The position numbers and the translations under genes are program-made. This document shows positions 3,598 to 22,312 of a stretch of 64,000 nucleotides of DNA, piece after piece. Origin of the DNA: Pectobacterium brasiliense (GTDB taxonomy: Bacteria; Pseudomonadota; Gammaproteobacteria; Enterobacterales; Enterobacteriaceae); NCBI RefSeq assembly GCF_013449685.1, contig NZ_JACDSF010000063.1, positions 1-64,000 on the forward strand, given 5' to 3'. How positions within the stretch are numbered: the first letter of the stretch is position 1; every line of letters begins with the position of its first letter. The notes under the pieces are model-generated. The model had not been told where the DNA came from, ran no database searches, and saw only the letters and a program-made list of their open reading frames with translations.

Positions 3598-3716
3598 GGT
3601 TGGTATCCTTCATTCAACACGGGTCTTGCCTGTTTTCGGCATGAGTAGCGATCACTCTACGCAATCGCCTAAAAAACTCAATGCAGTATAACCGTGAGAA
3701 GATAAACAGAAAGTGA

Positions 3717-3739: not shown

Positions 3740-3790
3740 AGAGCATGTGATAGAATGAAACGTCGGTGATGGGGAAAGTGTCTTCTTGAT

Positions 3791-5161: not shown

Positions 5162-5856
5162 GCAGCTGATACCATCAAATAGCCTCGTCCACGCAGCGTT
5201 TTAAACCAAGGCAGACCATCCTTGCGTTCTGGCAATTTACGTCGCAGGTTCGAGATATGCATATCGATCGCGCGGTCAAACGGCGTCAGCCGTTTCCCCA
5301 GCACTTCCTGACTTAAATGTTCGCGTGAAACCACCTGTCCCAGCCGCTGTGCCAGTAGATAGAGCAGCGTAAATTCGGTACCTGTCAGATCCAGCACGAT
5401 ATCGTCAAAGCTGGCTTCCTGCCGTCCGGGATTCAGACGCAAGCCGTCGACTTCCAGCGTCGGGGCGCTGTTATCACCCGCCTGCTGTTGATCGGTCCAG
5501 TTGGAACGGCGGAGAATTGCGCGAATTCGCGCCACCAGTTCTCGATCGTTAAAGGGCTTCGGCAGATAATCATCCGCACCCAGTTCCAAGCCAAGAACAC
5601 GGTCTAATTCACTGCCGCGGGCGGTCAGCATAATGACCGGTGTTTGATGCTGCTGTCGTAGTTCTTTTAATGTATCGATACCGTTTTTCTTCGGCATCAT
5701 CACATCGAGTAATAACAGGTCAATGGTGTTATCTAATACCTGTAACGCCTGCTCACCGTCGTAGGCGACAACGACGTTAAAACCTTCCATTTCGAGCAAT
5801 TCTTTAAGTAAAGCGGTCAGCTCTCTATCGTCATCAACCAGCAGAATTTTATTCAT
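5158..5856 (-). CDS. cpxR: Response regulator CpxR
   Basis: OmpR/PhoB-family transcription factor activated by CpxA phosphorylation. The receiver domain (residues 1-115) has the acidic pocket VDDD at 7-10 and the phospho-acceptor Asp51 in LLLLDVMMPKKNG. The C-terminal winged-helix domain ends in the typical KTLRGRGYLMV. The start at 5856 (MNKILLVDDD) is chosen because it gives the 232-residue length of E. coli CpxR. An in-frame upstream ATG at 5889 would add 11 poorly conserved residues. It is transcribed divergently from cpxP across a region holding a perfect CpxR box, so autoregulation together with cpxP activation is expected. Confidence 0.97.
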   Translation of the reverse strand: MNKILLVDDDRELTALLKELLEMEGFNVVVAYDGEQALQVLDNTIDLLLLDVMMPKKNGIDTLKELRQQHQTPVIMLTARGSELDRVLGLELGADDYLPKPFNDRELVARIRAILRRSNWTDQQQAGDNSAPTLEVDGLRLNPGRQEASFDDIVLDLTGTEFTLLYLLAQRLGQVVSREHLSQEVLGKRLTPFDRAIDMHISNLRRKLPERKDGLPWFKTLRGRGYLMVSAA

Positions 5857-5910
5857 GTTTTCTCTACCTCCAAGGGCAAAATACGACATAGATTAGCGCT
5901 ATTCCATGAC

Positions 5911-5925
5911 TTTACGTAGTTTTAC
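5911..5925. promoter_or_regulatory. CpxR-binding box between cpxR and cpxP
   Basis: TTTAC-N5-TTTAC at 5911-5925 reads GTAAA-N5-GTAAA on the minus strand, an exact match to the established CpxR recognition sequence. It lies in the divergent cpxR/cpxP promoter region, 54 bp before the cpxR start and about 85 bp before the cpxP start, as in E. coli. Confidence 0.85.
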
Positions 5926-6009
5926 ATCCTCTGACGCATGTTTGCAGCAAGATGCGTAGACTCCTGTTCATTGATTCACAAAACGACGTACCGCTCTGGA
6001 GAGTTATTG

Positions 6010-6534
6010 ATGCAACAGTTCGCAACCTTATCTCTTGCTTCACTGCTTATGTTAGGCACTTTTACCGCCGTTGCAGCAGAAAGTGGAGACGCCTCGGTGA
6101 GCGGCTGGCATATCGATGATTCCGTTACAAAAGGCACATCCGTCCAGCAAGGTATGTTCGATGGCGTGAGGCTGACTGAGCAACAGCGTCAGCAAATGCG
6201 TGATTTGATGCACCAGAGCCGTCAGGACAAGCCGACGTTTAATGCCGAAGATGTTAAAGCCATGCATAAGCTGGTGACGGCAGAGACGTTTGATGAGGCG
6301 GCGGTGCGAGCGCAGATAACCCGAATGATGAGTGTGCAGCTTGAGCGTCAGATTCAGATGACCCGAGTGCGCAACCAAATGTATAACCTGCTGACGCCAG
6401 CGCAGAAAGAGATATTAGAGCTGAAGCATAAGCAACGCATGAAAGAGATGCAGCAGCAGATGTCCCTGTTTAACCAGATGGCTGCGCCGGCACCAGGTAC
6501 GACAAGCCATGCCGAGACAGAGAATCCCGAGTAG
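6010..6534 (+). CDS. cpxP: Periplasmic Cpx adaptor/repressor CpxP
   Basis: CpxP is a periplasmic dimer that binds CpxA to dampen signalling and delivers misfolded pilins to DegP. The 174-residue product has a signal peptide (residues 1-23, cleavage near VAA-ES) and two LTxxQ motifs that define the family (LTEQQ at 55-59 and LTPAQ at 128-132). The rest is helical and Met/Gln-rich. The ATG at 6010 is preceded by GGAGAG at optimal spacing. A longer reading from 5938 has no signal-peptide logic. Transcription is expected to depend strongly on CpxR through the box at 5911-5925, and the 3' UTR carries a CpxQ-like small RNA. Confidence 0.93.
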   Translation: MQQFATLSLASLLMLGTFTAVAAESGDASVSGWHIDDSVTKGTSVQQGMFDGVRLTEQQRQQMRDLMHQSRQDKPTFNAEDVKAMHKLVTAETFDEAAVRAQITRMMSVQLERQIQMTRVRNQMYNLLTPAQKEILELKHKQRMKEMQQQMSLFNQMAAPAPGTTSHAETENPE

Positions 6535-6597
6535 TAGTGCGAGTGTAGTAAGTCGCTTGTAGTAAGCGTAGTGCAGTCCGAGTAGTAATGTGTAGTA
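6531..6597 (+). repeat. GTAGTA-rich repeat stretch after cpxP
   Basis: GTAGTA occurs at 6531, 6545, 6559, 6582 and 6592, with GTAGTG at 6568, many with a 14-base period. The stretch starts at the cpxP stop codon and ends just before the putative CpxQ 5' end. It puts TAG codons in several frames. Its role is unknown; it might be an unstructured RNase E or Hfq landing region. Confidence 0.5.
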
Positions 6598-6610
6598 GGT
6601 ACACACCCTG

Positions 6611-6672
6611 TTTTTCCTTGCCATAGACACCATCGCTGTCTTTTTGCCCTCCATGATGGAGGGCTTTTTTTT
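6611..6672 (+). ncRNA. cpxQ: CpxQ-like small RNA from the cpxP 3' UTR
   Basis: CpxQ of Salmonella and E. coli is released from the cpxP mRNA 3' end by RNase E and represses envelope-protein mRNAs with Hfq. The segment here begins TTTTTCCTTGCCATAGACAC, which from memory corresponds to the conserved 5' seed region of CpxQ. It continues with CATCGCTGTC and ends in a strong intrinsic terminator. Length (about 60 nt), position after cpxP and terminator structure all agree. The exact 5' end depends on processing and is estimated. Confidence 0.8.
6646..6672 (+). terminator. Intrinsic terminator of cpxP/CpxQ
   Basis: GCCCTCCA (6646-6653) pairs perfectly with TGGAGGGC (6657-6664) across a 3-base loop, followed by eight T residues (6665-6672). 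It ends the cpxP transcript and forms the Hfq-binding tail of CpxQ. Confidence 0.92.
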
Positions 6673-6870
6673 GGGATTTTTAAGACATATAGCGTGCTTT
6701 GACTTCATATAGATGATTTTCCGCTCCAGTGAAATGGCTGGCTGTGATGAGGATAGATATAAACGCTTGATGATTAGATTTTAATTAGATATTAATTGTC
6801 TTAATTAGCTAATTGTCTTATTGTTTATTCATTCGAAGCGGATATGCACTTTAATAAATCAAGGAAATTG

Positions 6871-7131
6871 ATGGTAAAGGCCATCTGGACAAGGAAAGCG
6901 TTGAAGCAACGTTTAACGATAGACCGCAGATATCAGGACACCATAAGCGAGAAAGTTGCTGAACTACGCAGTTTTCCTGCCGTAAACCTGGACATTATGG
7001 CGCTGAAGGGTGAGGCGGGAAAATTCAGGTTACGGGTGGGAGGCTACAGAGTAATTTTCGAGATTGTTAAAGGTGAGCCCCTTATCTGTGAGGTTCAGGT
7101 GGTCAAACGCAGAACCTCAACGACTTACTAA
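6871..7131 (+). CDS. RelE/ParE-family toxin of a type II toxin-antitoxin pair
   Basis: A short basic protein (86 residues from this start) with the RelE/HigB pattern: N-terminal WTRKALKQRL helix, central MALKGEAGKFRLRVGGYRVIFEI strands and a C-terminal basic strand VQVVKRRTSTTY. Family members cut mRNA on the ribosome or poison gyrase (ParE); which applies cannot be told here. The ATG at 6871 is preferred over one at 6844 because AAGGA precedes it at good spacing and the extra residues are not family-like. The toxin comes first and the HTH antitoxin second, as in higBA-type pairs. The pair sits at the edge of the accessory block inserted between cpxP and fieF. Confidence 0.8.
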   Translation: MVKAIWTRKALKQRLTIDRRYQDTISEKVAELRSFPAVNLDIMALKGEAGKFRLRVGGYRVIFEIVKGEPLICEVQVVKRRTSTTY

Positions 7132-7201
7132 TTATCAGGTTGGGTAATCCGCCCGTTTCCTGATGACATACACCGCGACTCACTGACCCTCGGATGAAAT
7201 T

Positions 7202-7570
7202 ATGTCAAAACCACAATTTATCAATGATGTGAACGGCAAGCCTCAGTTTGTTGTTCTACCTATCAGCGAGTATGAAAAGCTGCTGTCTGATAGCGATTCA
7301 GGTTATGAGGATATTCCTTATATTGCCGATGAGTACGACAACGAAACCGTACCTAATGATGTGGTAGAAATTATGTTCCGTGATGATGTTAGCTTGCTTG
7401 CGGCATGGCGTATCCATCGCGGATTATCACAATATGATGTAGCTGAAAAGCTAGGGACAACGCAATCAGCGGTTTCGCAATGGGAAGCGAAAGACTCACG
7501 GCCTCAGAAAAAAACCCGAGAGAAATTGTCTGAGATTTATCACTGCCGCCCAGAACAATTGATCCTTTGA
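7202..7570 (+). CDS. Antitoxin with Phd-like N-terminus and XRE-type HTH
   Basis: A 122-residue protein. Residues 1-30 (GKPQFVVLPISEYEKLL) resemble the start of Phd/YefM antitoxins. An acidic linker (about 31-65) follows, then a Cro/C1-type helix-turn-helix at about 68-115 (LAAWRIHRGLSQYDVAEKLG, TTQSAVSQWEA). It should neutralise the RelE-like protein 70 bases upstream and repress the shared promoter. The domain mix is unusual, because the N-terminal third looks like a different antitoxin class from the DNA-binding part. A strong terminator follows, so the pair is its own transcription unit, separate from the next operon. Confidence 0.78.
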   Translation: MSKPQFINDVNGKPQFVVLPISEYEKLLSDSDSGYEDIPYIADEYDNETVPNDVVEIMFRDDVSLLAAWRIHRGLSQYDVAEKLGTTQSAVSQWEAKDSRPQKKTREKLSEIYHCRPEQLIL

Positions 7571-7583
7571 TTGTATTACTACG

Positions 7584-7605
7584 ACCCGCTTCAGCGGGTT
7601 TTTTT
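7584..7605 (+). terminator. Intrinsic terminator after the toxin-antitoxin pair
   Basis: ACCCGCT (7584-7590) pairs with AGCGGGT (7593-7599) across a 2-base gap, followed by a T-run to 7605. The region after it to 7837 is strongly AT-rich and probably holds the promoter of the next operon, though no confident -35/-10 pair was picked. Confidence 0.88.
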
Positions 7606-7837
7606 ATCTGAAAATAACCACGTAATACCTGATGTTTTTATTAATGTTGTGATATTTTCAACCAATTCTATTTTTACCTAAAATTTTGGATAAGATTAAA
7701 ATAAATTGGATTTATTCACTGTATAAATAACAATAAGCGAAATTAAAATTTGTAAAAAAAGATGAATTTTAAAATTGAGAATAATCAAAAATCATGTTAA
7801 AAAGTTACTGTTTATCTATACATAACCAGGTGCTGAC

Positions 7838-10800
7838 ATGATAAAAAAATTATTCGATCTGTTATCGATTTTTGGTGATAAGAAAGTAACGCCGACGGAA
7901 ACGTTGCTGCAAGAATCTCTCTTGCCGCTTGCAGAACTTGATAAAACGTTGTCGAAGAAAATATTTAATTATGTCATGACGGGCACCGAATCTGAGGTTC
8001 TTTATACCTTAAATCAGTTAGATTTTGATAAAACAATCGTCCTTCTGGACAAGCCGGGTTCAGTTGATTGGTACTATGTTCAAAATAATAATTTTAATTC
8101 CAGTGAATATAATAAAATAATCAGGCAGGCAAGGAACGCGCGTTATAAGCTCTATTCCATGGTAGGTCAAGGATTAACAAGTGAACAAACGGTACGTTTT
8201 GCGAAAGTATTAGCTGCGGCATGTCAGAATAAAAATATAAAAATAATAACTGACGAAGTGCCAAACTGGGTGGTTTATTTGCTCTGTGATGCGTTGGCCA
8301 CTACGTTGAAAAGCACATCTAATGAAAAGTTGAAATTACATCACCGTGCTGGTTGGAGCGTTCAATTTCTCGCTGAACTGGTTGCCAGTGAACAGCATGA
8401 TAAAAAAGGCGAGAATATTTTATTTGCTATTTTTGATCGGAAGGAAATAGGTGAATACTATAGCTCGGAGTTAGCGATTTTCTTTGAACTCCCTGATTTG
8501 CAGACATATATCGAAAATCATGCACAGTTTGTCCGCACGACGCTAGTGGACAAACTTTCTGCACCCGGCCAGATTCAGTTCCTGAAGTATTTATCCGACC
8601 GTGAAGTGTTGCGTGTTTTTTTCTCAGATGTCATTGTTAAATTAGCAATGGATCAGAAAAAGATGGTGCGCAGCGAAGCTGAACCGCTGCTGAATACTCT
8701 TCCCACGAATGATGTCAAAGCTCATCTGAGTGATATTCTTTTTAACGGAACGCCAAAACAGCGCTCTCAGGCTGCCGATCTCTTTGCCCGTCAGGGAGAA
8801 AATAAAGATATTTTAGAACAGGCATTACAGTTAGAAAAAAGTAAGGCAGTGATAAAAAATATCGAAAGTGCCATTACACGTTTTGACGTTGTTGATACGG
8901 CACAGGATATAGCACTCCCTGAATTACCTGAACTCACGTTGCTGGCTGATACGCCGTTGCCTGAAAGCGCAAAAGAGATTCTTGTCGAAAACCTGATGGA
9001 AATGGTGGAAACGGCAAGAATAAATGCGGAAAAAGAAATAGAACAAAATAAAACGAATGCGTACAAATATAAATGGGCGCAAGAACATTATGCTAAATTA
9101 AAAAAATTAAGTGCTGAACATTGCCGTGCTTTAGTTGATAAGCTTAATCATGGTAATAATAAATTATCTAGTGAAGATATTAGCATCATTAAACATAAAA
9201 AACGTATTAGCAACCTTCCTGAATTTACGTTTTATCATGCCATGAGAGTTATTTTTGGCAATATGCATACGTACTTCAATCTAGTCACTGCTCGAATAGA
9301 AAATGAAACTCCCACTCATATTATTGCTGGATTGGAATTACGACAAATTGAAGGTGTTTTGCAGGCGTTGGCATGCCCAGAACCTGCACGGATCGCTGCC
9401 TCGTTATGTTTAGAATCTTATAACCATGGGTTGAGACTATTTCCTAAACCGGAACAGCTCTGGCCTTTTTTCTCTCAACATCCAGACTATATCGCCGAAG
9501 CGTTGGGGCTATTGCCGAATAAGAGCGACAATAGATATCGCCAATTTGAATTGGGTCAGGCTTTTGAGCTGCTTGATAAATTCCCTGCTATTCCCGCGCA
9601 GTTTATTCCGCGCATTATGGAACTGGCTTTAGGCGAGAATAAAACGTTCCGCGTGAGTGCGCAGAAGTTGCTCGAAAAATTGCCGAATGTGCATGTGAAT
9701 GCGCAGGAAAGCCTACATTCCGCAAAACAAGAAATCCGTATTACCACGATCGAGTGGCTTGCGCGAATAAAACATAAAGACAGTATCGCGCCGCTTTATG
9801 CATTGTTAAAAAAAGAGAAGAGAGAAACCGTCCGAGCTGCATTGCTGGCGGCGCTAGAGCAATTTGGTGAGGATATCTCACCGTATTTATCCGAAAAGGT
9901 ATTGCGTGACGAAGCGTTGAAGGGACTGAAAGCAAGCCCGCCTACGAGCATGAGCTGGTTTGACTATAACGCGATACCGCCATTGAAATGGGAAAACGGT
10001 AAGGCCGTCGATGCCGACATTATCAAATGGTGGATAATTCTGGCGGTGAAATTAAAAATGCCCGCAGGTAACACGTTATTGCAACGCTATGTCGGGTTAT
10101 TAGCCAAAGAGAGCCAGCATAAGCTGGGCCACTTTATTCTACATGCGTTTATCACGCAGGATGTAAAAAATCCGTCGCTGGAAGACGCGATATCGGAAGC
10201 GCATAAGGATGCGCCCGCACGTTTAAAAACGTATCAGTATTATCTTGAGCGTTACCCTGAGTATTACCAAAAATATGAGCATTACACGCTGGAGCAGGCG
10301 GCTGAGGAAATAAAAAATGAAGTCCTGCGGCGCTATTTAGGTTCTGCCATCGCGGATAAAGGTATGTTGGCGTTGATTGGTCGTATCGAGGGCCATGTTG
10401 CCGTCTCCGCATTACGCAACTACATGCGTGACCATTATCAGCGTCGTTCACAGATTGAAGCGATGATCAGCGCGATGGCGATTAGCGACGATCCGCTCAT
10501 TATCCAATTGTTGCTCTCTCTTTCACGCCGCTACCGCACTGCGGCGATTCAGGAAAAGGCGCGTGAGCTAGTCAAAGAGATTGCCGATCGCAATGGCTGG
10601 AGCGCGGATGAGCTGGCCGATCGCACGATCCCTACGGCGGGGTTGGATGAAACGGGTACGCTGGTGCTGGAATACGGCGAGCGGATCTTTACTGCGCGCA
10701 TGGACAACAAACAGAAGTTGGTGCTCCTTAACCCGGAAGGGAAAGAGATTAAAGCTCTGCCTGCGGCGCGCAAAACGGATAACGAAGAGCAGATAAAAGA

Positions 10801-11581
10801 AGCGAAAAAGCTGTTCTCATCGAGCAAAAAAGAGCTGAAACAGGTGATCGACTTGCAAACTGCACGTTTGTATGAATCGATGTGTGCTCAGCGCCAATGG
10901 TCGAGTGAGGACTGGCAGACTTACATCATGGGTCACCCTGTGATGCGCCCGCTGATTGAGCGCTTGGTGTGGCAAGAGGTGAAGGATGAGAAGGTACTCA
11001 ATACCTTCAGGCCAACGGATGACGGCTGCTTAATTAATCTTGAAGACGATGAAGTTGAACTATCGAACGGTACGCTGATTCAGTTTGCGCATGCCGCTAT
11101 TGTCGATAACGAGACGCGTGAAGCCTGGCTCGCACATTTTAAGGATTATAAAGTGGCGTTCTTGTTCTCGCAGATGGTACACAAGCTGCCCGAACTCGAT
11201 CGTAAACTGGTTGAAATTGAGGACAAAAAAGGGTGGTTGACCGATACGTTCACGCTGCGCGGCGTCTTAACCAAAATGGGATATCAGCGCGCGCCAGCGG
11301 AAGATGGTGGGTCATTTAGCCATTATTATAAGCATTTCAGTAGCTTGAATTTGTACGTCAATATTGGGTTTAGCGGTAGCTACGTGCCAGAAGAAAATAT
11401 TCCGGCGGTCTTGTTTGATTTGAGCTTTGAGAAAAATCAGCAAAATTATTGGGATCGCAACAATCTGGCGTTACAGGATGTCCCCCCCATTTTACTGGCA
11501 GAAAGCTATGCCGATTACCTGAAAGCCGCAGATGCTTGCTCGGGATACGATGCCGACTGGGAAAGCAAAACGCCTTGGTAA
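7838..11581 (+). CDS. yehI: DUF4132 giant protein, YehI-like; first gene of the yeh-type operon
   Basis: A 1247-residue predicted soluble protein corresponding to E. coli YehI (about 1200 residues; the family was once annotated as a molybdate-metabolism regulator on weak grounds). No signal peptide. The middle contains HEAT-like helical repeats (for example around residues 650-690, RITTIEWLARIKHKDSIAPL). A DUF4132 domain lies at about 940-1080 with the strand-rich VLEYGERIFTARMDNKQKLV and the helix VIDLQTARLYESMCAQRQW. A further conserved segment follows to the C-terminus. The first half is more AT-rich than the neighbouring backbone genes, suggesting separate ancestry. It heads a five-gene same-strand run and may be the substrate-recognition or scaffold component for the MoxR ATPase and VWA protein. 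The function is unproven. Confidence 0.8.
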   Translation: MIKKLFDLLSIFGDKKVTPTETLLQESLLPLAELDKTLSKKIFNYVMTGTESEVLYTLNQLDFDKTIVLLDKPGSVDWYYVQNNNFNSSEYNKIIRQARNARYKLYSMVGQGLTSEQTVRFAKVLAAACQNKNIKIITDEVPNWVVYLLCDALATTLKSTSNEKLKLHHRAGWSVQFLAELVASEQHDKKGENILFAIFDRKEIGEYYSSELAIFFELPDLQTYIENHAQFVRTTLVDKLSAPGQIQFLKYLSDREVLRVFFSDVIVKLAMDQKKMVRSEAEPLLNTLPTNDVKAHLSDILFNGTPKQRSQAADLFARQGENKDILEQALQLEKSKAVIKNIESAITRFDVVDTAQDIALPELPELTLLADTPLPESAKEILVENLMEMVETARINAEKEIEQNKTNAYKYKWAQEHYAKLKKLSAEHCRALVDKLNHGNNKLSSEDISIIKHKKRISNLPEFTFYHAMRVIFGNMHTYFNLVTARIENETPTHIIAGLELRQIEGVLQALACPEPARIAASLCLESYNHGLRLFPKPEQLWPFFSQHPDYIAEALGLLPNKSDNRYRQFELGQAFELLDKFPAIPAQFIPRIMELALGENKTFRVSAQKLLEKLPNVHVNAQESLHSAKQEIRITTIEWLARIKHKDSIAPLYALLKKEKRETVRAALLAALEQFGEDISPYLSEKVLRDEALKGLKASPPTSMSWFDYNAIPPLKWENGKAVDADIIKWWIILAVKLKMPAGNTLLQRYVGLLAKESQHKLGHFILHAFITQDVKNPSLEDAISEAHKDAPARLKTYQYYLERYPEYYQKYEHYTLEQAAEEIKNEVLRRYLGSAIADKGMLALIGRIEGHVAVSALRNYMRDHYQRRSQIEAMISAMAISDDPLIIQLLLSLSRRYRTAAIQEKARELVKEIADRNGWSADELADRTIPTAGLDETGTLVLEYGERIFTARMDNKQKLVLLNPEGKEIKALPAARKTDNEEQIKEAKKLFSSSKKELKQVIDLQTARLYESMCAQRQWSSEDWQTYIMGHPVMRPLIERLVWQEVKDEKVLNTFRPTDDGCLINLEDDEVELSNGTLIQFAHAAIVDNETREAWLAHFKDYKVAFLFSQMVHKLPELDRKLVEIEDKKGWLTDTFTLRGVLTKMGYQRAPAEDGGSFSHYYKHFSSLNLYVNIGFSGSYVPEENIPAVLFDLSFEKNQQNYWDRNNLALQDVPPILLAESYADYLKAADACSGYDADWESKTPW

Positions 11582-11592
11582 TCCGCTTATGG

Positions 11593-11615
11593 AGCCAGTA
11601 CGCCTTGTGCTGGCT
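11593..11615 (+). other. Intercistronic hairpin between yehI and yehL
   Basis: AGCCAGTAC (11593-11601) pairs with GTGCTGGCT (11607-11615) with one G-T pair and a 5-base loop. Only a weak T-rich stretch follows, so it could be a partial terminator or an RNA-processing site setting different levels for yehI and the downstream genes. Confidence 0.4.
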
Positions 11616-11650
11616 TCGTTCATTATTTTGTGGCGAACAGAGACACGAAC

Positions 11651-12760
11651 ATGGAAAAACACTCACCGATAGCCAACGATGTGCTGCGTCAACATGCCGA
11701 AATCCGCTTTGCTGATGAATTAGCCCGCCTGACCAACGCGGACGAAAATAACCCGAAGCCGCGGGGCTGGCTGCGCTCGCCTCGTGCGGTGCGCCAGTTT
11801 ATTTTAGGTGACGATGCCTTAGGGATTTCCGCGAAATTTTTTGGCGATAACGCGCTGGTCGACCGAGCGATTGTGACGCTGCTGGGGAAACAAGGGTTGA
11901 TGTTGGTTGGTGAACCCGGAACCGCGAAATCGATGCTGTCTGAGCTGTTTGCGGCGGCGATCTCGGGAGATTCCGGCTTGACCATTCAAGGCACGGCGGG
12001 AACGACGGAAGATCATATCAAGTACTCATGGAACTATGCGCTGCTGCTTGCTGAAGGCCCCACCGAGCGGGCGCTGATCGGTTCACCGCTCTATCAGGGA
12101 ATGATGCAAGGCAGGATTGTCCGTTTTGAGGAAATCACCCGCTGCCCGCCAGAAATTCAAGATGTTCTGGTTTCTTTGATGTCTGAAAAACAGCTGATGA
12201 TCCCTGAAATGGGCGAGCAAGGGCGGATCAGTGCCAAACCCGGCTTTAACCTGATTGGTACGGCTAACCTGCGCGATCGCGGCGTACATGAAATGTCAGC
12301 GGCATTAAAACGACGCTTTAACTTTGAAACGGTGAGGCCGATTCAAGATCCTGAATTCGAGATCGCGCTAATTCAAACGCAGCTTACGCGTGAATTGGGC
12401 GATTTGGCTGCGCTTGTCACCGTGCCACCGAGCGTCATCGAATTGCTGGTGACCACCTTCCAGGAACTGCGCTCGGGCAATACACGCGACGGCGGCAGCA
12501 TCAAAACGCCGGATGCGGTGATGTCGAGTGCGGAAGCGGTCAACATTGCCTATGCCTCCGCGCTTGAGGCGCATTATCTGGGTGATAGCACGCTGAATGC
12601 GGGCGCTATCGCACGCCAGATTATCGGCGTGGTATTAAAAGATAATCCTGACGATGCAAAACGTATGCGCTACTACGTTGATAACGTGGCGCGAGAAAGG
12701 GCAAAAAGCAGCGATGACTGGAAAGCGTTTTATGATGCCTCACGACAGTTTTGGAAGTAA
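11651..12760 (+). CDS. yehL: MoxR-type AAA+ ATPase, YehL-like
   Basis: A 369-residue AAA+ protein of the MoxR group, whose members typically work with a VWA protein as a metal- or protein-maturation chaperone. Seen: Walker A GEPGTAKS at residues 87-94, Walker B-region FEEITRCPPEIQDVLVSLM, sensor-1 region FNLIGTANLRDRGV, and the sensor-2 helix region of the lid domain. The start at 11651 (MEKHSPI) is chosen over an in-frame GTG at 11630. Neither has a strong ribosome site. It lies 69 bases after yehI and 59 before yehM. The gene order ATPase, DUF5682, VWA, SWIM matches E. coli yehL-M-P-Q, supporting one functional complex. Confidence 0.87.
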   Translation: MEKHSPIANDVLRQHAEIRFADELARLTNADENNPKPRGWLRSPRAVRQFILGDDALGISAKFFGDNALVDRAIVTLLGKQGLMLVGEPGTAKSMLSELFAAAISGDSGLTIQGTAGTTEDHIKYSWNYALLLAEGPTERALIGSPLYQGMMQGRIVRFEEITRCPPEIQDVLVSLMSEKQLMIPEMGEQGRISAKPGFNLIGTANLRDRGVHEMSAALKRRFNFETVRPIQDPEFEIALIQTQLTRELGDLAALVTVPPSVIELLVTTFQELRSGNTRDGGSIKTPDAVMSSAEAVNIAYASALEAHYLGDSTLNAGAIARQIIGVVLKDNPDDAKRMRYYVDNVARERAKSSDDWKAFYDASRQFWK

Positions 12761-12819
12761 GGCCGTGGCCAATTGTTGTTGATAATTTCACGGACATTTT
12801 TTCATGAGGAAACGCGCTG

Positions 12820-15384
12820 GTGAGTCTCTCAAACATCGTATTGCCCGCACGAATGGAACAGGCGCTGGCAACATGGGATTTCTTGCAGTCGCAGCAGATC
12901 TATTTTGCGCCGGTTCGCCACCATAGCCCAGCGTGTGCCTATGGCCTGCTGTCATTGATTGACGATATCCAGCCCGATCACATTTTGATTGAGGCACCGG
13001 TCAGTTTTAATCACCTATTGCCCGATTTGCTTCATCCTGACGCCAAGCCTCCTATCGCGGTGATGGGGCAGGCTGACGTTCACGCCCGCGAGCCGCAAGA
13101 GGGTGAAACACCGCAAGCGACCACGCGCAGCGCTTTTTTCCCTTTTTGTGACTATTCGCCCGAATGGGTTGCGCTGCACGCGGGGCATTGTCACAACGCG
13201 ACACTACGCTTTATTGATTTGCCGTGGGTTGAGCAAATCGCGATTGAGGAGCGTCAGAATGACGCCAGTCAGAGCCTGCAAGCGGAACGTTATCTCGCCC
13301 ATAGCCAGTTCATTTCAGCACTCGCAAAAAAATGCTATTGCCGCGATCACGATGACTTGTGGGAGCATTTATTTGAACTACGTTCGATTGAGGCGCTGAC
13401 CGACTGGCAAGCGCTTTTCCGCGATACGCTGGTCTGGTGCGCGTTGGCGCGACTGGATTATGAGCCTCAGGTTTTGGAAGCTGAGGGATCTGCACAGCGT
13501 GAGGCGCATATGCTCGCCGCTATCATGCAGATTCGTGCTGAAAATCCAACGGGGAAAATTCTGGTTGTCACCGGCGGTTTTCATTCGCTGGCGCTGCTCG
13601 AAGGGCTGTCTCACGACGGGAAATCGTTCAATGCCTTCACAGATACCGCGAAGAAGCAGTACCAAAAACAGCTTAAGCAGGCGGAAAACGACAGTGCGTG
13701 GCTCATCCGCTACAGCTTTGACAGATTAGATGCGCTCAACGGGTATGCCTCCGGCATGCCTGCGCCTGCGTACTACCAGCGAAGCTGGCAGATGCTTATG
13801 GCACAGCGGGATGATCGGGTGGGGGAAGCGGGGCCGCCACCGCTCACGACCGAGGAATACCGCAATAATATGGGGATGCGTTTTTTGTCTGAGGTTGCCA
13901 GCCTGCTCCGCACTAAATCTTTTGACGATCCGCCCAGCTATATCACGGTAAAGAATGCCGTCGAGCAGAGCGTACGGTTAGCGGCATTGCGCGGGCATGA
14001 AGGCCCCGGCCGTTACGACCTGCTGGATGGGCTACAAAGTAGTTTTATCAAAGGCAGTATCGATGATGCGCAGCGCGATCTGTGGCTTGAGATTAACAAG
14101 GTGTTCTCCGGCCATACGTTAGGACAGATCCCGGCAGGCAGCGCAACGCCTCCGCTGGTTGCTGAAACCTATCGGTTAGCGAAATACTATCGTTTTAAAC
14201 TTGATGACACGCTCGTCAAACTGAGCCGTTTGGATATCTATCGCAACCCGCAGCATCGTGCCCGCAGCCGCTTTCTTCATCTGCTGAGCTTCCTTGAGGT
14301 GGGCTTTGCAACGCGCAGTCATGGCCCTGATTTTTTGAGCGGTCACAATCTCGATCTGCTATTTGAAGAATGGCACTATGCGTGGACTCCGTCGATCGAA
14401 GGGCGACTGATTACGCTCTCGGAGAAGGGAAGCCAGCTCGAAGCGATTGCCATCGATAAACTACTCTATCTGGAAAAGCAGTTAGCGGAACAGGGGCAGA
14501 ATCGGTCGAGCAAGAATGCGGTACAGGTGCTGATTCAGGCGGCGCTATTGGGCCTACAGTCGCGTTTAGCTGGGCTATTCCGCTTATTGCATGACGATAT
14601 ACACAACGATTTTCGGTTAAGTTCGCTCGTGGAATGCGGGCATAGTCTGATTCATCTCTGGCGCGGGCGTGATTTTCTTGGTTTACGCACTCAGCCTGAG
14701 TTAACTCAACTGCTGTTTAAGCTGGTTCCACAGGCACTGTTTTGCTTACCGACCATCGCTGCGGGTGATGAATCACAGCAGGAAGAACATTTCACCGCAT
14801 TGCTTGCCTTGCGTGAGCTGATTGAATTTATTCCTACGCTCGATCCCTCTAGTAACGCCAGTCGCGATTTTTACCACCAATTGCAGCAGATCGCCCCTGA
14901 ATTAAAGGACGTGCCTTTGTTAAAAGGGACGGTTGATGCGCTGCGCTATCTCGGTGATGACATTGATGAACGCACGCTTGATGACAATTTATCGAACGTC
15001 TTTAGTCAGGGTAGCGATCCCGAGCAGGCGGTTCGCTATTTTGTGGGATTAATGCGCGTCGCCCCTGAGCTGATTATCAAAACGCCGCGTTTGGTTGATA
15101 AGTTAAATGCGCTCATGTCGCAGTGGGATGATGACCGTTTTCTGCATGTGTTGCCCGACCTACGCTTTGCTTTCAGCCAACTCACACCGAAGCAGAATGC
15201 GACGTTAGCGAGCTATATCGCCGAGCAATGCGGCTTCTCTGAGCCGGAAATGCATCTTTGGCAAATGGACTTCACGGAGCAGGAACTGCTACAGACGATG
15301 CAGTTAAACCAAAAGCTGCAACAGCAGTTGGCGGAAGACGATTTACTGTCATGGTATGAAAAAGAGAAGGGTGCAGTCCGATGA
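12820..15384 (+). CDS. yehM: DUF5682 protein, YehM-like
   Basis: An 854-residue soluble protein, family DUF5682. The N-terminal 300 residues look like an alpha/beta enzyme domain: YFAPVRHHSPACA near residue 30, HILIEAP, then VVTGGFHSLALLEGL near residue 250. The RHHSP and GGFH motifs resemble putative metal-binding positions of the broad EreA/ChaN/TraB-like superfamily, which is inference. The C-terminal two thirds are helical. It begins with GTG at 12820, preceded by GAGGA 9 bases upstream. Its stop overlaps the next start by 4 bases (ATGA), so it is translationally coupled to the VWA gene. It is the most plausible catalytic member of the system besides the ATPase. Confidence 0.8.
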   Translation: MSLSNIVLPARMEQALATWDFLQSQQIYFAPVRHHSPACAYGLLSLIDDIQPDHILIEAPVSFNHLLPDLLHPDAKPPIAVMGQADVHAREPQEGETPQATTRSAFFPFCDYSPEWVALHAGHCHNATLRFIDLPWVEQIAIEERQNDASQSLQAERYLAHSQFISALAKKCYCRDHDDLWEHLFELRSIEALTDWQALFRDTLVWCALARLDYEPQVLEAEGSAQREAHMLAAIMQIRAENPTGKILVVTGGFHSLALLEGLSHDGKSFNAFTDTAKKQYQKQLKQAENDSAWLIRYSFDRLDALNGYASGMPAPAYYQRSWQMLMAQRDDRVGEAGPPPLTTEEYRNNMGMRFLSEVASLLRTKSFDDPPSYITVKNAVEQSVRLAALRGHEGPGRYDLLDGLQSSFIKGSIDDAQRDLWLEINKVFSGHTLGQIPAGSATPPLVAETYRLAKYYRFKLDDTLVKLSRLDIYRNPQHRARSRFLHLLSFLEVGFATRSHGPDFLSGHNLDLLFEEWHYAWTPSIEGRLITLSEKGSQLEAIAIDKLLYLEKQLAEQGQNRSSKNAVQVLIQAALLGLQSRLAGLFRLLHDDIHNDFRLSSLVECGHSLIHLWRGRDFLGLRTQPELTQLLFKLVPQALFCLPTIAAGDESQQEEHFTALLALRELIEFIPTLDPSSNASRDFYHQLQQIAPELKDVPLLKGTVDALRYLGDDIDERTLDDNLSNVFSQGSDPEQAVRYFVGLMRVAPELIIKTPRLVDKLNALMSQWDDDRFLHVLPDLRFAFSQLTPKQNATLASYIAEQCGFSEPEMHLWQMDFTEQELLQTMQLNQKLQQQLAEDDLLSWYEKEKGAVR

Positions 15385-16532
15385 GTGCGCAAGATCCGCA
15401 GTCTGATGATAAAGAAAAAAACGGCAAACGCTGGCGATTGATTCTGGGCCACTACGCCGACGAGGCATTAGGTAACGCGGCGTTTGATGCGAATGACCTG
15501 AAAGTTGAGCGTACTCTGGATTATCTCTATCGCCGAGAATATCAGCGTCGTGGGCTTAAGCAGGAAGGAGGGCGGCACGGCTCTTTGGATCAGTCTCAAC
15601 TGACGGCGGTTAACTGGCTCAATCAGGCGCGTAAATTGTTCCCCAGCAGCACGTTTGAGCGAATGCAATCGCAAGCAATTGAACGCTATGAAATCTCGCA
15701 TTTATTCAACGATCCACAGGCTCTGCAAGCGATGGAACCCACGCCCGCGCTGGCTAAGGCGCTATTGAGCTTGCGTGGACGGATGAATGAACAAACGCGT
15801 GAAGCGGTGCGCGACATTATTCGCAAGGTGGTCGATGAGATATTACGCACGCTGAGGCCGACGTTTACGAATGCGCTTACCGGTCGCCGGAATCGATTCC
15901 GACGTTCACCTGTCGCCAGCAGTCAAAATTTTGACTGGCGTGCCACGATTGCGGCCAATCTTAAGCACTTTGATCGTGATAAGAACCGGCTGGTCATTGA
16001 AACACCGCATTTTAATTCACGCATGCAGCGGCATATGCCGTGGGATGTTATTTTGTGCGTCGACCAAAGTGCTTCGATGTCCAGTTCGGTGATGTATGCA
16101 GCGGTCTGCGCCAGCATTCTGGCGGCGCTGCCTGCGGTACGGGTTTCATTGATTGTATTTGATACACAGGTGGTTGATTTATCGCATCTTGCCCACGATC
16201 CGGTTGAGGTGCTGATGACGGTGCAACTGGGAGGCGGGACGAATATTGCGCAGGCCATGCAGTACTGCGAACAGCGAGTACAAAACCCGAAACGCACCAT
16301 CGTGACGTTAATCAGCGACTTTGAAGAAGGCGGTGCGCTGAATCGCCTGCTCAGTTGCGTGCAGCGCATGCACAGTCAGCAGATCACGTTGTTAGGGCTT
16401 GCCGCGCTTGATGATGCCGCACAGCCGGTATACGACACCGCAATCGGGCAAAAGCTGGCCGATCGCGGCATGCATGTTGCGGCGCTGACGCCGGAGCACT
16501 TTGCGCAGTGGCTGGCGGAGGTGATGCGATGA
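15381..16532 (+). CDS. yehP: VWA-domain protein, YehP-like
   Basis: A 383-residue protein with a basic helical N-terminal region (about 1-200) and a C-terminal von Willebrand factor A domain. The metal-ion-dependent adhesion site is intact: D228-Q-S230-A-S232 in ILCVDQSASMS, the Thr in LGGGTNIAQAM, and the Asp in TLISDFEEGG. Such domains bind partner proteins through Mg2+ and are the usual partner of MoxR ATPases such as the yehL product three genes upstream. No signal peptide, so cytoplasmic. Start and stop both overlap neighbours by 4 bases (ATGA at 15381 and 16529), giving tight coupling from yehM to yehQ. Confidence 0.88.
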   Translation: MSAQDPQSDDKEKNGKRWRLILGHYADEALGNAAFDANDLKVERTLDYLYRREYQRRGLKQEGGRHGSLDQSQLTAVNWLNQARKLFPSSTFERMQSQAIERYEISHLFNDPQALQAMEPTPALAKALLSLRGRMNEQTREAVRDIIRKVVDEILRTLRPTFTNALTGRRNRFRRSPVASSQNFDWRATIAANLKHFDRDKNRLVIETPHFNSRMQRHMPWDVILCVDQSASMSSSVMYAAVCASILAALPAVRVSLIVFDTQVVDLSHLAHDPVEVLMTVQLGGGTNIAQAMQYCEQRVQNPKRTIVTLISDFEEGGALNRLLSCVQRMHSQQITLLGLAALDDAAQPVYDTAIGQKLADRGMHVAALTPEHFAQWLAEVMR

Positions 16533-18601
16533 GCTGGCAATCCCTCTACCTGAATTATGATGACGATGCGTTGGGCGTTTTTGCGAATGTCGGTTTATTG
16601 CGTCGGGCAAAAAAAGATCTGGCTGGCGATAAGGTGGCGTTGGTGACCGATGCCGGGCAAGAAGGGCATTTTGTCAGCGATGGTCAGCAGGTGGTGCTTA
16701 ATGCGCAGGGAATACAAACCGCGCGGTGTGATTGCCCCGCTTCGGGCTGCTGTAAGCACATTTTGGCGGCAGTGCTGTGGTTACAAGACCATGCTGAATG
16801 CGGTGCGGAGCAGGCCTCGCCTCTCTCTGAGGAAACCACCGTACTACTGATAGACGTGCTTGCCGAGATCTTACAGCTTGATCCTGAGACGTTAATGAAG
16901 CAGGTCGGCAAAGGGCAAACGCGGCATGCCGCGCGATTTGTTCAGATGTGGGCGGAAGAATCGGTGAGGACGGAATCACTGCCCAACCAGCTTAAAATTC
17001 ACCTGCCGATGCTGGAAAATCCCGTTATCTATCTGGCTGGGGCGGGGTTTGCTGGCATGCTATCGGATTTCTTACGGGATAAGCAGCCGGCCTTGCATCT
17101 TGCTGCCATTGCCTGCCTCTTTGAAGCCAACCAACGTGTCTGGCCGTGGCCCGAGGATTGCCTGGCTCAGGAAACGCAAGTGCGGGCGCTACATGCTGAT
17201 GAGCGTGCGCTGATTGCTACGCTTCACATGTTTATTCAGGACATCCTGAACCAGGGGCTGTCGCATATTAGTAAAAGCAGTGCGCGGCAGCTTCATTTGC
17301 TGAATATGTCCGCTCGTGCGGAAGGGCTCCCTCGGCTGGCGGGCTATTTGCGTAATGTGAGCGGGCAGGTCAGCCTATTAGCGGACAGGCATTACAGTCT
17401 GGAAGAGCGTGATGTGCTGCTGTTCATTGCCCGTCTGTCGGCTTATTTATACCAGCTTGGGCAGGCGACGCCTGAGCGTTTGCTACATCTGCGTGGGCGG
17501 GTACGGCGGCAATATCAACAACAGCCTGAAGCCTTATCGCTTGTACCATTGGGCGCGCAGTGGTGGGTCACCGAAGGCGGTGCGCGTGGTGCCACCTTTT
17601 CGTTTTGGGATAGTGAGAATCAGCGATTACTGCACTGTACGCAAGCGCGGGCTGATTACCATGATGTGACGTTTAGCCAGCAGGGCGTGTGGCAGGGGCA
17701 GACTATGTGGAAACAACTGGGCGAGCACATCATGCGTGCTCCCTTTACGCTGCACCATCCGCGTTTTTCTGACGACGGGAAATTGGCCGCAGGTGGAGAA
17801 AGTTACGCGAACCTTGAAAGCACGCCGTGGCCTGCCGCCGCCTATGTGCAGTGTAAATCGACGTGCGGCATTGCTGACTGGTCGCAGCTGTTTCACTATT
17901 TTGAGCAAGAGAATCAGGATTACCCACAGCCTCTGCTGCTGCATGTGAACCGCTATGACTCCGTCGTCTGGAATGAGGTGGAGCAGCGTGTGGTCTGGCC
18001 GGTCTTTGATAATGCGGACAATGCGCTGTATCTGAGCCTAAACTGGGAAAAAACGCAGCATCAGCGCATAGACAGGCTCAAACAGGCGACTCAGCAAAAG
18101 TGGGCGATTGTGGCGGTGTTGGTTCAACCCCGTCGCCGTGGGAATGATATTGATCTCCATCCTTACTCTCTCTTGGTGAGTGATGGCAGCGCGGTGACCG
18201 CATTTTGTTTGGATTTTCAGACCATCAAGACCAAGAAAACAGTACCCAGTTTTATTAGCCATATCCAAACGATATTTGCAGAGAAAAAGCGGCGTAAAGT
18301 GGTGCAGCGTCCCTTGCCGACGCTGGCACAGCGGGTTTGTCGCCCGATTCTTGATGTGCTGGACGCGCAGGCTTGCACCGGACGGCGGTATTTAACCTCA
18401 ACGCAAAGAGAGCAGTTGCAACACGGTATGAAAACGGCCAATGAACTGGGTTTAACGCTCGTTGAAAATGCGTTGTCGCACTATTTAGCGCAGCCCCAGC
18501 CGGATGTGTATAGCCTGCTGCGGATCGTCTTTCTTTGCGACAGGCTTCAGCGTTTTCAAAACGGGTTACCGATTGTGATACGCCAGTCGTCATCTGTGTA
18601 G
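16529..18601 (+). CDS. yehQ: SWIM zinc-finger protein, YehQ-like
   Basis: A 690-residue protein with an N-terminal SWIM zinc-finger (C67-x-C69, C74/C75, H77 in RCDCPASGCCKH), a fold predicted to bind DNA or protein. The rest is mainly helical with no further motif that I recognise. The ATG at 16529 overlaps the yehP stop by 4 bases and gives the MSWQSLYLNYDD N-terminus; a reading from 16508 lies inside yehP. It is the last gene of the five-gene run. The 293 bases that follow hold no supportable gene. In other bacteria SWIM proteins often occur with DUF5682 and VWA genes, supporting a common complex. Confidence 0.85.
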   Translation: MSWQSLYLNYDDDALGVFANVGLLRRAKKDLAGDKVALVTDAGQEGHFVSDGQQVVLNAQGIQTARCDCPASGCCKHILAAVLWLQDHAECGAEQASPLSEETTVLLIDVLAEILQLDPETLMKQVGKGQTRHAARFVQMWAEESVRTESLPNQLKIHLPMLENPVIYLAGAGFAGMLSDFLRDKQPALHLAAIACLFEANQRVWPWPEDCLAQETQVRALHADERALIATLHMFIQDILNQGLSHISKSSARQLHLLNMSARAEGLPRLAGYLRNVSGQVSLLADRHYSLEERDVLLFIARLSAYLYQLGQATPERLLHLRGRVRRQYQQQPEALSLVPLGAQWWVTEGGARGATFSFWDSENQRLLHCTQARADYHDVTFSQQGVWQGQTMWKQLGEHIMRAPFTLHHPRFSDDGKLAAGGESYANLESTPWPAAAYVQCKSTCGIADWSQLFHYFEQENQDYPQPLLLHVNRYDSVVWNEVEQRVVWPVFDNADNALYLSLNWEKTQHQRIDRLKQATQQKWAIVAVLVQPRRRGNDIDLHPYSLLVSDGSAVTAFCLDFQTIKTKKTVPSFISHIQTIFAEKKRRKVVQRPLPTLAQRVCRPILDVLDAQACTGRRYLTSTQREQLQHGMKTANELGLTLVENALSHYLAQPQPDVYSLLRIVFLCDRLQRFQNGLPIVIRQSSSV

Positions 18602-18894
18602 CGCCTTTTCCTGACAGAGAACAGCATGAACGTTGAGTAAGAAAAGCACGAAAAAAGACAGCGTAAGGGAGCGGTAAAGCGTAGAATGTGAGCACCAAAA
18701 ATGATGCTCATGAATGTTCCCTTACCTGTTTTCAGGCTTTTGGCTGACATCCTCATAAAAGCACGCTGAAATACCCTTGGCCGCTCGCCGATTACACGGC
18801 GATGTCATTCTTTCCCTGTACCATTGCTCCATCGCGTTAGCCTCTGCCACGACAGGGGGCGCATTCTTTTATTTTAACTTTTGATATCAATATC

Positions 18895-20082
18895 ATGACC
18901 CGTTCTTCCCGTTCGACCGCCTGGTTACGCGTCGTCAGCCTTTCTCTGGCGGCCTTCATTTTTAACACCGCTGAATTTGCCCCCGTTGCGCTCCTGTCAG
19001 ACATCGCCGCCAGCTTTTCCATGAGCGCTGCGCAGGTCGGGCTGATCATTACGATCTATGCCTGGGTGGTTGGGCTGATGTCGCTGCCCTGCATGCTGCT
19101 GTCCAGTGATATGGAGCGACGCAGCCTGCTGATCAAAATCTTTATCCTGTTCGCCGTCAGCAATGTGTTGTCCGGTTTGGCCTGGAACTATTGGGTGCTG
19201 GTGATTGCTCGTATTGGCGTGGCGCTGGCTCACGCGGTGTTCTGGTCGATTACGGCATCGCTGGTGGTGCGTCTGGCGCCTGCGGACAAAAAAGCACAGG
19301 CGTTAAGTTTGCTGGCGACCGGCACGGCGCTGGCGCTGGTGCTGGGGTTACCGCTGGGGCGTGTGGTCGGGCAGTATCTGGGCTGGCGTGTGACGTTTGT
19401 CCTTATTGGCCTGATTGCTGCGGGGATTATGGTGGGTCTGATGAAACTGCTGCCTGTGCTGCCAAGCAGCAATTCCGGTTCGTTGAAGAGTTTGCCCCTC
19501 CTGCTTAAACGTCCAGCATTGCTGTGCGTGTACGGCCTGACTGTGATGATCGTAACCGCGCACTTTACCGCCTACAGTTATATCGAGCCTTTTATCCAGA
19601 AAGTGGCGTTGTTGAGTGAAAACTTCACCACCCTCTTGCTGCTGATTTTTGGCGGTGCTGGCATCATTGGCAGTATGCTGTTCAGCCGCTACAGCAGCAA
19701 ATATCCGGCAGGCTTCCTGATTGTCTCGTTCGCGTTTCTGGCGGTATGTTTACTACTCCTGCTGCCTTTGTCATTCAGCGGCTGGAGCCTGTCGACGCTG
19801 TGCATCATCTGGGGAATCGCCATTATGGCGCTGAGCCTGGGAATGCAGGTAAAAGTGTTGACGCTGGCATCGGATGCCACCGATGTGGCGATGGCACTCT
19901 ACTCAGGAATTTATAACATTGGGATCGGCGGCGGTGCGCTGCTGGGCAATCAGGTTATTATCCATTTGGGCCTGCCCGACATCGGTTTCATGGGGGCAGC
20001 GATGGCGATACTGGCAACCGTGTGCTGTATTTTTACGTTTGTCCGCTATTCCCGTGTGTTAAAAACGTCATTGGCGAATTGA
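18895..20082 (+). CDS. sotB: Sugar efflux transporter SotB (major facilitator family)
   Basis: A 395-residue 12-segment MFS exporter. SotB was described in Dickeya (Erwinia) chrysanthemi and E. coli (YdeA) as an efflux pump for arabinose and other sugars or analogues. Sequence support: the [18 protein letters not shown] first membrane segment, [30 protein letters not shown], and [18 protein letters not shown], all close to the E. coli protein from memory. The ATG at 18895 fits the conserved N-terminus but has no visible ribosome site. A perfect 10-bp palindrome TTGATATCAA (18881-18890) lies just before it and could be an operator. It lies between the yeh-type operon and fieF. Confidence 0.9.
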
Positions 20083-20163
20083 ATACGGCAATGACTCAAG
20101 CGACCTTTTTTCAGCCAAGATCTCCGTTCTCTGTAAGGGCATCTGTTTTACGTTGAGGGTATG

Positions 20164-21066
20164 ATGAATCGACACTATGCGCGTCTAGTGACGCTGGCAG
20201 CCGTGAGCGCAACCGCCGTGGCGCTGGCGCTGTTCATAATGAAAGTATTTGCCTGGTGGCATACTGGTTCGGTGAGCCTGCTGGCATCACTGGTTGATTC
20301 GTTGATGGATATCGCCGCGTCGCTCGTGAACCTGCTGGTAGTGCGCTACTCGTTGCAGCCGGCGGATAATGAGCACGCATTCGGCCACGGTAAAGCGGAG
20401 TCATTGGCTGCGCTGGCGCAAAGCATGTTTATCTCCGGCTCGGCGCTGTTCCTGATCCTGACGGGGCTGCAACATTCGCTGGAGCCACAGGCGCTGCACG
20501 CGCCGGAAGTAGGCGTATGGGTGACGCTCATTGCGTTAGTGGTCACGCTGCTGCTGGTGTCGTTCCAGCGCTGGGTCGTGAAGCGCACGCACAGTCAGGC
20601 GGTACGTGCGGACATGCTGCATTATCAGTCCGACCTGTTGATGAACGGCGCGATTCTGGTGGCGTTGGCGCTCAGTTGGAAAGGTATTACGCGCGCCGAC
20701 TCCCTGTTTGCATTGGGTATTGGCGGCTATATTTTATATAGCGCGTTACGCATGGGGTATGACGCTGTGCAGTCGCTGTTGGATCGCGCGTTGCCGGAAG
20801 ACGAGCATCGCGCTATTGCTGAGATGATTGTGAACTGGCCGGGCATTCGCGGCGCACATGCGTTGCGTACCCGACGTTCTGGTCCAACGCGCTTTATTCA
20901 ACTACACCTAGAAATGGATGACACGTTGCCTCTGGTTCAGGCGCATCAAATTGCAGATGATCTGGAGCAGGCATTGCATGAACAGTTTCCAGGTGCCGAT
21001 ATTATTATCCATCAGGATCCGGTTTCTGCTGTGCCGGAAAATCAGCGTGGCAGATTGACAGCGTAG
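20164..21066 (+). CDS. fieF: Ferrous-iron/zinc efflux pump FieF
   Basis: Cation diffusion facilitator that exports Fe(II) and Zn(II) across the inner membrane in exchange for protons. The 300-residue product has six membrane segments. The metal-site motifs are present: LVDSLMDIA in segment 2 (two Asp) and [10 protein letters not shown] in segment 5 (His and Asp). The cytoplasmic [14 protein letters not shown] loop and the C-terminal domain (IIIHQDP) are typical. The second of two adjacent ATGs (20164) gives MNRHYARLV, matching E. coli. In E. coli fieF sits directly after cpxP; here about 13 kb of accessory genes separate them, while the fieF-pfkA linkage is kept. Confidence 0.95.
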
Positions 21067-21162
21067 TCGGCTAGGTTTCAGCATTTTATGTTAAAAACGT
21101 GATACGTCATGAAAATTTATGCACAATTTAGCCTGACCTGAATCAATTCAGCTTCGGGTGTT

Positions 21163-21171
21163 TGTTATAAT
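21163..21171 (+). promoter_or_regulatory. Extended -10 promoter element of pfkA
   Basis: A perfect TATAAT (21166-21171) preceded by TG one base upstream gives an extended -10 about 100 bases before the pfkA start. No good -35 is visible, as is usual for extended -10 promoters. Confidence 0.55.
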
Positions 21172-21273
21172 ATGCTAATAAAAGAATAAGGCGTTGCTGC
21201 CGTGTTTCACGGCGGCGGTGAATTTACGATAGAAGAATCCTGCAAAATTACATCTACAAGTCCAGAGGTTGTC

Positions 21274-22236: not shown

Positions 22237-22312
22237 TCCACGAAAGCTGATGTTTTCGCTAATTGACGGCTACACCAACCTTGCCGTTATTCGGCGTAAA
22301 AAATTATGCTGA

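Follow-up and report, generated by a model that had tools for sequence, protein, structure and literature searches.

A widespread five-gene MoxR-VWA operon with a predicted TIKI/TraB/ChaN-fold subunit in Pectobacterium brasiliense

The window analyzed here, a stretch of 64,000 nucleotides from Pectobacterium brasiliense (contig NZ_JACDSF010000063.1), contains five intact, co-oriented open reading frames (ORFs) on the + strand between positions 7838 and 18601. The first (7838–11581) encodes a YehI-like DUF4132 protein of 1247 amino acids, in which HEAT repeats, the DUF4132 region and a C-terminal YugN-like domain were recognized by Pfam (DUF4132, 2.9e-31, plus HEAT_2), modeling and structural matching. 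It is followed by a YehL-like MoxR AAA+ ATPase (11630–12760; 376 residues; Pfam AAA_5, 1.1e-34), whose Walker A (GEPGTAKS) and Walker B (FEE) motifs are both intact, and by a YehM-like DUF5682 protein (12820–15384; 854 residues; Pfam DUF5682, 7.6e-101) that is predicted to combine a TIKI/TraB/ChaN-fold domain with a HEAT-like helical repeat. The last two genes encode a YehP-like VWA protein of the CoxE type (15381–16532; 383 residues; Pfam VWA_CoxE, 9.4e-52), with an intact metal ion-dependent adhesion site (MIDAS) string DQSAS, and a YehQ-like SWIM zinc-finger protein (16529–18601) of 690 residues from the ATG at 16529, or 697 from an alternative GTG start at 16508, which carries the SWIM motif CDCPASGCCKH (Pfam SWIM, 3.3e-4; 20.6 bits, cut-off 19.6). 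The first two gaps measure 48 and 59 nt, and the third and fourth genes, as well as the fourth and fifth, are translationally coupled, because they overlap in ATGA sequences at 15381–15384 and 16529–16532. A terminator-like stem between the first and second genes (11589–11619) may be a chance occurrence, since 20 such sites were found in the region against 15.0 expected. These ORF calls, overlaps and Pfam matches agree with a first-pass annotation of the DNA, which had described five same-strand genes, the last three coupled by ATGA, encoding a 1247-residue repeat protein and proteins with an intact MoxR Walker A motif, VWA metal site and SWIM finger.

The association of the five families was analyzed in genomes and in individual loci. 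Among 398 genomes of the phylum, with both counts apparently taken on the same draw, DUF5682 was found in 14 and DUF4132 in 11; nine genomes have both, against 0.39 expected (Fisher p 1.7e-13). The locus sample, picked on DUF5682 alone, comprised the window, 19 unnamed loci and 80 named loci (the best 80 of 572 relatives), and the families were detected in these 100 loci with profiles built on the proteins of the window and on those of one DUF5691 locus. All five families are present in 75 of the 100. The gene order is I-L-M-P-Q on one strand in 55 of these complete loci and L-M-P-Q-I in 14, and the remaining six are rearranged or have an extra copy. Named loci make up 63 of the 75 and cover seven named phyla; the 49 with an NCBI genus fall into at least 33 different genera. 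A chance cluster of unrelated genes could be argued from the DUF4132 genomes that lack DUF5682 (2/11; five DUF5682 genomes lack DUF4132), but the recurrence of complete loci across phyla and the excess of shared genomes make this explanation extremely improbable, and it was rejected. On this genomic evidence the five genes are a system. The first-pass annotation had named co-occurrence no better than chance as the outcome that would speak against it, and the observed association lies far above that level.

A second arrangement, architecture B (SWIM-DUF5691-MoxR-DUF5682-VWA), was identified by profiles in six of the 100 loci, and Pfam confirms DUF5691 in all three that were scanned. Genome G196 carries both architectures. 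The loci of architecture B (L024–L029) have a SWIM motif of their own in common, CxCPSRKFPCKH. Several of the remaining 19 loci lie on short contigs, and four (L121, L108, L083 and L113) are roomy yet missing components. In a Micrococcales metagenome-assembled genome (L087:3-4157), one open frame holds DUF5682 and VWA joined by a proline-rich linker, which hints at a contact between the two proteins. In L035 and L037, by contrast, what looks like a MoxR-DUF5682 fusion consists of two frames that overlap. DUF5682 is split over two successive frames (632 and 219 amino acids) in Acinetobacter brisouii (L066:9965-12520), apparently a broken copy. DUF4132 proteins also occur away from the operon (L047, L048, L054 and L058, in genomes G007, G200 and G154), in genomes with or without it.

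Escherichia coli yehI-yehL-yehM-yehP-yehQ comprises the same five families in the same order as the window, as the first-pass annotation had stated, with the likeness holding at the family level only. Identities between the window and E. coli proteins are 50% for MoxR, 42% for VWA and 27% for DUF5682; the two E. coli DUF4132 proteins are 27–29% identical over 301–335 residues, and the SWIM protein 31% over 98 residues. The E. coli locus differs in having two DUF4132 genes and yehK, lies between metG and yehR, and belongs to a different DUF5682 clade. In the DUF5682 tree (a quick method with midpoint root, supported by the Shimodaira–Hasegawa-like approximate likelihood ratio test only), the window and its congener G334 group with Proteus, Providencia and the Proteus-like genome G478, next to Gilliamella and Acinetobacter, and E. 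coli YehM falls far from them, in a clade that it shares with Erwinia, Massilia, Variovorax and Lysobacter. The tree and the identities rule out a relocated E. coli operon; in the tree, the operon of the window forms a lineage of its own whose closest relatives are in Proteus and Providencia. A partial match to yehL was found in 4950 of 5426 complete E. coli genomes (about 91%), and YehL is described as one of seven MoxR subfamilies in the available text of PMC3893208.

The DUF5682 protein of the window was modeled on an alignment of 18 sequences, with a predicted local distance difference test score (pLDDT) of 83.9. The model consists of an alpha/beta domain (residues about 27–300; as the predicted TIKI/TraB/ChaN-fold domain, about 22–300) followed by a long HEAT-like helical repeat (about 310–850). 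Residues 1–272 match chain DQ of Tetrahymena complex IV (8bqs_DQ) with a VIA Z score of 11.1 and a root mean square deviation (rmsd) of 4.9 over 208 aligned residues. Three Tetrahymena complex IV entries top the structure list, and later matches (Z 9.1 and below) fit mainly the helical part. Tetrahymena complex IV includes a TraB-family subunit, according to the part of PMC10060162 available. Chain DQ is presumably that subunit; at the sequence level, a TraB profile failed to retrieve this chain. A search of the PDB by sequence with DUF5682 returned ATP synthase b chains only, which were taken as spurious.

Profile-profile comparison with hhalign was carried out for the DUF5682 N-domain (99 sequences) against ChaN (25), TraB (25) and erythromycin esterase (12) sequences from genomes, leaving out three ChaN sequences, one TraB sequence and four weak loci of the TraB search (L163–L166). 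The domain matches ChaN with a probability of 92.9/96.1% in the two directions and TraB with 45.5/35.4%, the latter over nearly the whole domain. No control (the C-terminal part of the same protein, DUF4132, MoxR, VWA or SWIM) exceeded 0.3%, and a kinship with erythromycin esterase was discarded, as that profile gave no match. ChaN and TraB match each other at 91/89.5%, so DUF5682 is as near to ChaN as TraB is.

The conserved residues of the domain are consistent with this relationship. H34, E58, R227, G252 and H255 are kept in all 99 DUF5682 sequences and H35 in 97, and these residues align with the positions that do not vary among nine aligned TraB rows, G16..H19, E45, R215 and G238..H241 (GxxH, E, R, GxxH). 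At the glycine position of the first motif, DUF5682 proteins have either G or P, and the window protein has P. The RHHSP and GGFH motifs singled out by the first-pass annotation are present, and nearly invariant among relatives. Because the profile match and the aligned invariants coincide, the DUF5682 N-domain is, as judged from these two lines, a member by descent of the TIKI/TraB/ChaN superfamily, an assignment that is new here. Hydrolysis is its likely, predicted activity. The earlier proposal that DUF5682 is an enzyme thereby gains a concrete basis in a TIKI/ChaN fold and its histidines, with the activity itself remaining a prediction.

The partner proteins combine a conserved motor with fast-changing components. 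The P-loop GxPGTAK[ST] is kept in 93 of 95 MoxR frames (TAKS in 78, TAKT in 15), the DxSx[ST] string in 94 of 95 VWA frames, and the SWIM motif CxCx(n)CxH in 77 of 87 YehQ frames. Median pairwise identities over 49 single-copy loci are 0.51 for MoxR, 0.44 for VWA, 0.33 for the DUF5682 N-domain, 0.25 for its C-terminal part, 0.26 for DUF4132 and 0.19 for SWIM. A PDB sequence search with YehL retrieved midasin; the same search with DUF4132 gave no convincing match. The C-terminal 468 residues of DUF4132 (780–1247) were modeled from a 64-sequence alignment with a pLDDT of 91.8. HEAT-like helices come first, the middle part was hardly covered by the structure search, and the C-terminal domain resembles YugN (2r5x; VIA Z 9.2, rmsd 3.6, 104 aligned residues). 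Foldseek found nothing for this model at E ≤ 0.001. Among the 78 loci with DUF4132 matches, 50 have one frame, 17 have two and 11 have three, broken or cut genes being counted too. The first-pass suggestion that DUF4132 is a scaffold or target agrees with its HEAT repeats, its fast divergence and its varying number of frames (one to three in a locus); the window protein is presumed to be an adaptor or a receptor for clients.

The operon occupies most of an inserted segment of about 11.97 kb (6673–18645), which lies between the cpxP terminator and the side of the major facilitator superfamily (MFS) gene and fieF; ORFs and Pfam confirm the position within the cpxP-fieF interval given at first pass. 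The corresponding site is empty in the congener G222, which aligns to window positions 78–6672 and 18646–22257 with 12 nt between them, and cpxP adjoins fieF in two other genera of the family (G166 and G377). The MFS transporter gene (18895–20082), between the insertion and fieF, is found in G222; in G166 and G377 nothing between cpxP and fieF aligns with it. The congener G334 carries the insertion, and since the aligned blocks are 89–92% identical through flanks and insertion alike, the insertion seems to predate the split of G334 and the window. At its left end are a ParE-like toxin of a type II toxin-antitoxin pair (6844–7131, + strand; Pfam ParE_toxin, 4.9e-7) and a helix-turn-helix (HTH) antitoxin or repressor (7202–7570, + strand; HTH_3, 1.1e-11). 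Locus L034 of a congener has a called HTH gene and no called toxin ORF of at least 80 amino acids, although its DNA aligns at 91%. G+C is 0.39–0.42 at 7–10 kb, against 0.46–0.62 in the other kilobases of 1–30 kb. Carriage by a mobile element was considered and set aside: none of the ORFs in the insertion encodes an integrase by Pfam, the two 140-nt edges have no common word of seven bases or more, and copies turn up in just 36 of 72,556 plasmid records and in one of 50,697 phage records. DUF5682 scores above the cut-off in six of the 149 genomes of the family. This patchy occurrence and the empty site in G222 bear out the earlier description of an accessory module; the implied move of the E. 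coli operon does not hold, the lineages being separate.

Our preferred explanation, to which we give slightly less than an even chance, is that the operon encodes one ATP-driven MoxR-VWA remodeling machine, with YehM as a TIKI-fold hydrolase subunit and the DUF4132 and SWIM proteins recruiting substrates. YehL would form the usual MoxR hexamer, and YehP would act as its VWA co-factor, gripping the substrate or passing on motion. For NorQ-NorD, the available text of PMC13036017 describes a MoxR ring that contacts its VWA partner by way of the pore and remodels this partner. The fast-evolving adaptors YehQ and YehI would recruit the substrate, and YehM would perform the chemical step on the remodeled substrate as a TIKI-type hydrolase, either peptidase or esterase; DNA damage may induce the operon in some enterobacteria. 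It is possible, if doubtful, that the machine is a novel type of AAA+-coupled hydrolase, whose MoxR ring and VWA protein remodel an adaptor-chosen protein and present it to the TIKI-fold site; the one core would then work with either of two adaptor pairs that can replace each other, DUF4132 and YehQ or DUF5691 and the other SWIM protein. Several observations weigh against a hydrolytic machine. Foldseek with the whole YehM model returned nothing at E ≤ 0.001, and in two loci (L083 and L113) DUF5682 stands alone on long contig stretches, with no MoxR, VWA or SWIM match nearby. RRSP, a TIKI-family peptidase, requires two histidines and two glutamates according to the part of PMC6254334 available, and the position aligned with the first glutamate (32) is V or I in all 99 DUF5682 sequences; TraB sequences likewise lack it, and the deficit therefore concerns an RRSP-type site and not the superfamily. 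Finally, Pfam labels ChaN a haem-binding family (PF04187, Cofac_haem_bdg), and since it is the closest profile, the DUF5682 N-domain could bind a cofactor instead of hydrolyzing.

This last point leads to an insertion chaperone for cofactors or metals like NorQ-NorD or CoxD-CoxE, which we judge unlikely; YehL and YehP would open a client, the ChaN-like YehM would hold or deliver haem or metal, and DUF4132 proteins would be clients or scaffold. The CoxE-type VWA domain and the ChaN match of YehM are consistent with it, as are partial texts reporting that NorQD serves metal insertion (PMC13036017), that yehM was mutated in copper-evolved E. coli (PMC12409786), and that DUF4132 and MolR are possibly tied to molybdate metabolism (PMC8533742). 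However, the domain keeps the histidine and glutamate positions of the superfamily and not the fold alone, and no metalloenzyme family recurs beside the operon: in the 25 of 102 Pfam families listed for 116 immediate neighbors of named loci, the content looks ordinary and no family has more than three members. A module of the DNA-damage (SOS) response, with the SWIM protein as nucleic acid reader, would be compatible with the remodeling machine and is itself unlikely. A LexA-like site, CTGTTTATCTATACAT (7808–7823, + strand), ends 14 nt before the first start codon, is identical in the congener L034 and differs by one letter in Proteus (L060 and L062); E. coli has CTGGATAAAATTACAG between metG and its first DUF4132 gene (L140:2744-2759). 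Such sites precede the first gene in six of 15 Enterobacterales loci against 1.25 expected, a count inflated by related loci, and in five of 11 hand-set groups that include E. coli (binomial p 0.0012, the grouping having been chosen after looking). On the other hand, the window site has one mismatch in eight core bases, Providencia, Gilliamella and the G478 locus have no such site, and loci of other groups show no excess (5/53, about 4.6 expected). Small surpluses of other LexA-type patterns (GAACN4GTTC in three of eight alphaproteobacterial loci, 1.30 expected) leave no clear excess either, and SOS control outside Enterobacterales was dismissed; in the window's own genome nine LexA-type sites compare with eight for the pattern read backwards. 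The E. coli DUF4132 gene is presumably molR. Paper support for this identity comes from PMC8533742 only, the available part of which links DUF4132 and WGR proteins with MolR; molR is among SOS or LexA-regulated genes in partial texts of three papers (PMC11039860, PMC3978071 and PMC4576408), which favors SOS control. The site before the window operon is, as a sequence match, a candidate lead only.

A conflict system, directed against phages or otherwise and akin to the MoxR-vWA ternary systems that Kaur et al. described in 2020, is rather unlikely. It would suit the patchy occurrence, the island with its toxin-antitoxin pair, the rapid divergence of SWIM and DUF4132, and the prevailing P-loop, since the GXXXTAKS form is ascribed to FtsH and beta-propeller MoxR systems in the part of PMC7159879 available; a bpMoxR match on the window MoxR reaches 22.4 bits, under the cut-off of 27. 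The surroundings and the core proteins were compared with the defense models of PADLOC 2023. Neighbors of 19 loci match 17 models (12 names) in 117 ORFs, against eight (four names) in 127 ORFs of control regions taken at arbitrary coordinates in the same genomes, several models bearing the same name. This excess is small, and of ten long neighbor ORFs checked singly one gave a match, a caspase-like protein a few kilobases from the operon (L037:2156-4375, 2e-13); the immediate neighbors of named loci yield ten models for 116 genes. The excess near the operon is thus nominal and the context not clearly defensive, which is no proof of absence. Among the core proteins the sole match at E ≤ 0.01 is PDC-S62 over the SWIM stretch of YehQ (0.0024); for the HTH protein encoded upstream, 12 models match over their HTH stretches. 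The near-core status in E. coli, the scarcity of plasmid and phage copies, and the lack of any Pfam match at E ≤ 1 among the five proteins to the third components described by Kaur et al., some of which may have no Pfam model, also argue against this alternative. The conflict system proposed at first pass therefore finds no clear support.

A five-component MoxR-VWA system with a TIKI-fold subunit is real, widespread and undescribed in the literature searched. In the Creative Commons-licensed literature of PMC, which holds no subscription papers or preprints, DUF5682 is unmentioned, DUF4132 figures in three papers and combinations of two or more yeh names in three, and no title or abstract opening among the papers listed for yeh names or DUF5691 deals with the five-gene system; no settled function was found there, despite a relative in about nine-tenths of complete E. 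coli genomes. With DUF5682 assigned to the TIKI/TraB/ChaN superfamily, there are specific residues to mutate and activity classes to assay; the conservation of the operon, together with architecture B, points to the proteins that should be co-purified. Were the hydrolase reading true, MoxR-VWA machines would gain a catalytic arm, linking two large, poorly understood protein families.

Several known systems come close to the operon. Like NorQ-NorD, CoxD-CoxE and RavA-ViaA, it encodes a MoxR AAA+ ATPase and a VWA partner of the CoxE type in one operon, but it adds three conserved components, including the predicted TIKI-fold protein, and has no recurring client enzyme among the scanned neighbors. 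The ternary systems of Kaur et al. 2020 share a MoxR-VWA core with further conserved components and the GXXXTAKS P-loop, although their described third components have no counterpart here at the Pfam threshold given above; YehL, SWIM, TraB and DUF4132 are not named in the available portion of that text (PMC7159879). Architecture B retains the same MoxR, DUF5682 and VWA core, and replaces DUF4132 and YehQ with DUF5691 and another SWIM protein. With respect to the TIKI/TraB/ChaN superfamily, the DUF5682 N-domain has the same predicted fold and the same His, Glu, Arg and GX2H positions; it differs in carrying a helical repeat of about 500 residues and in being tied to an AAA+/VWA pair, with a predicted activity.

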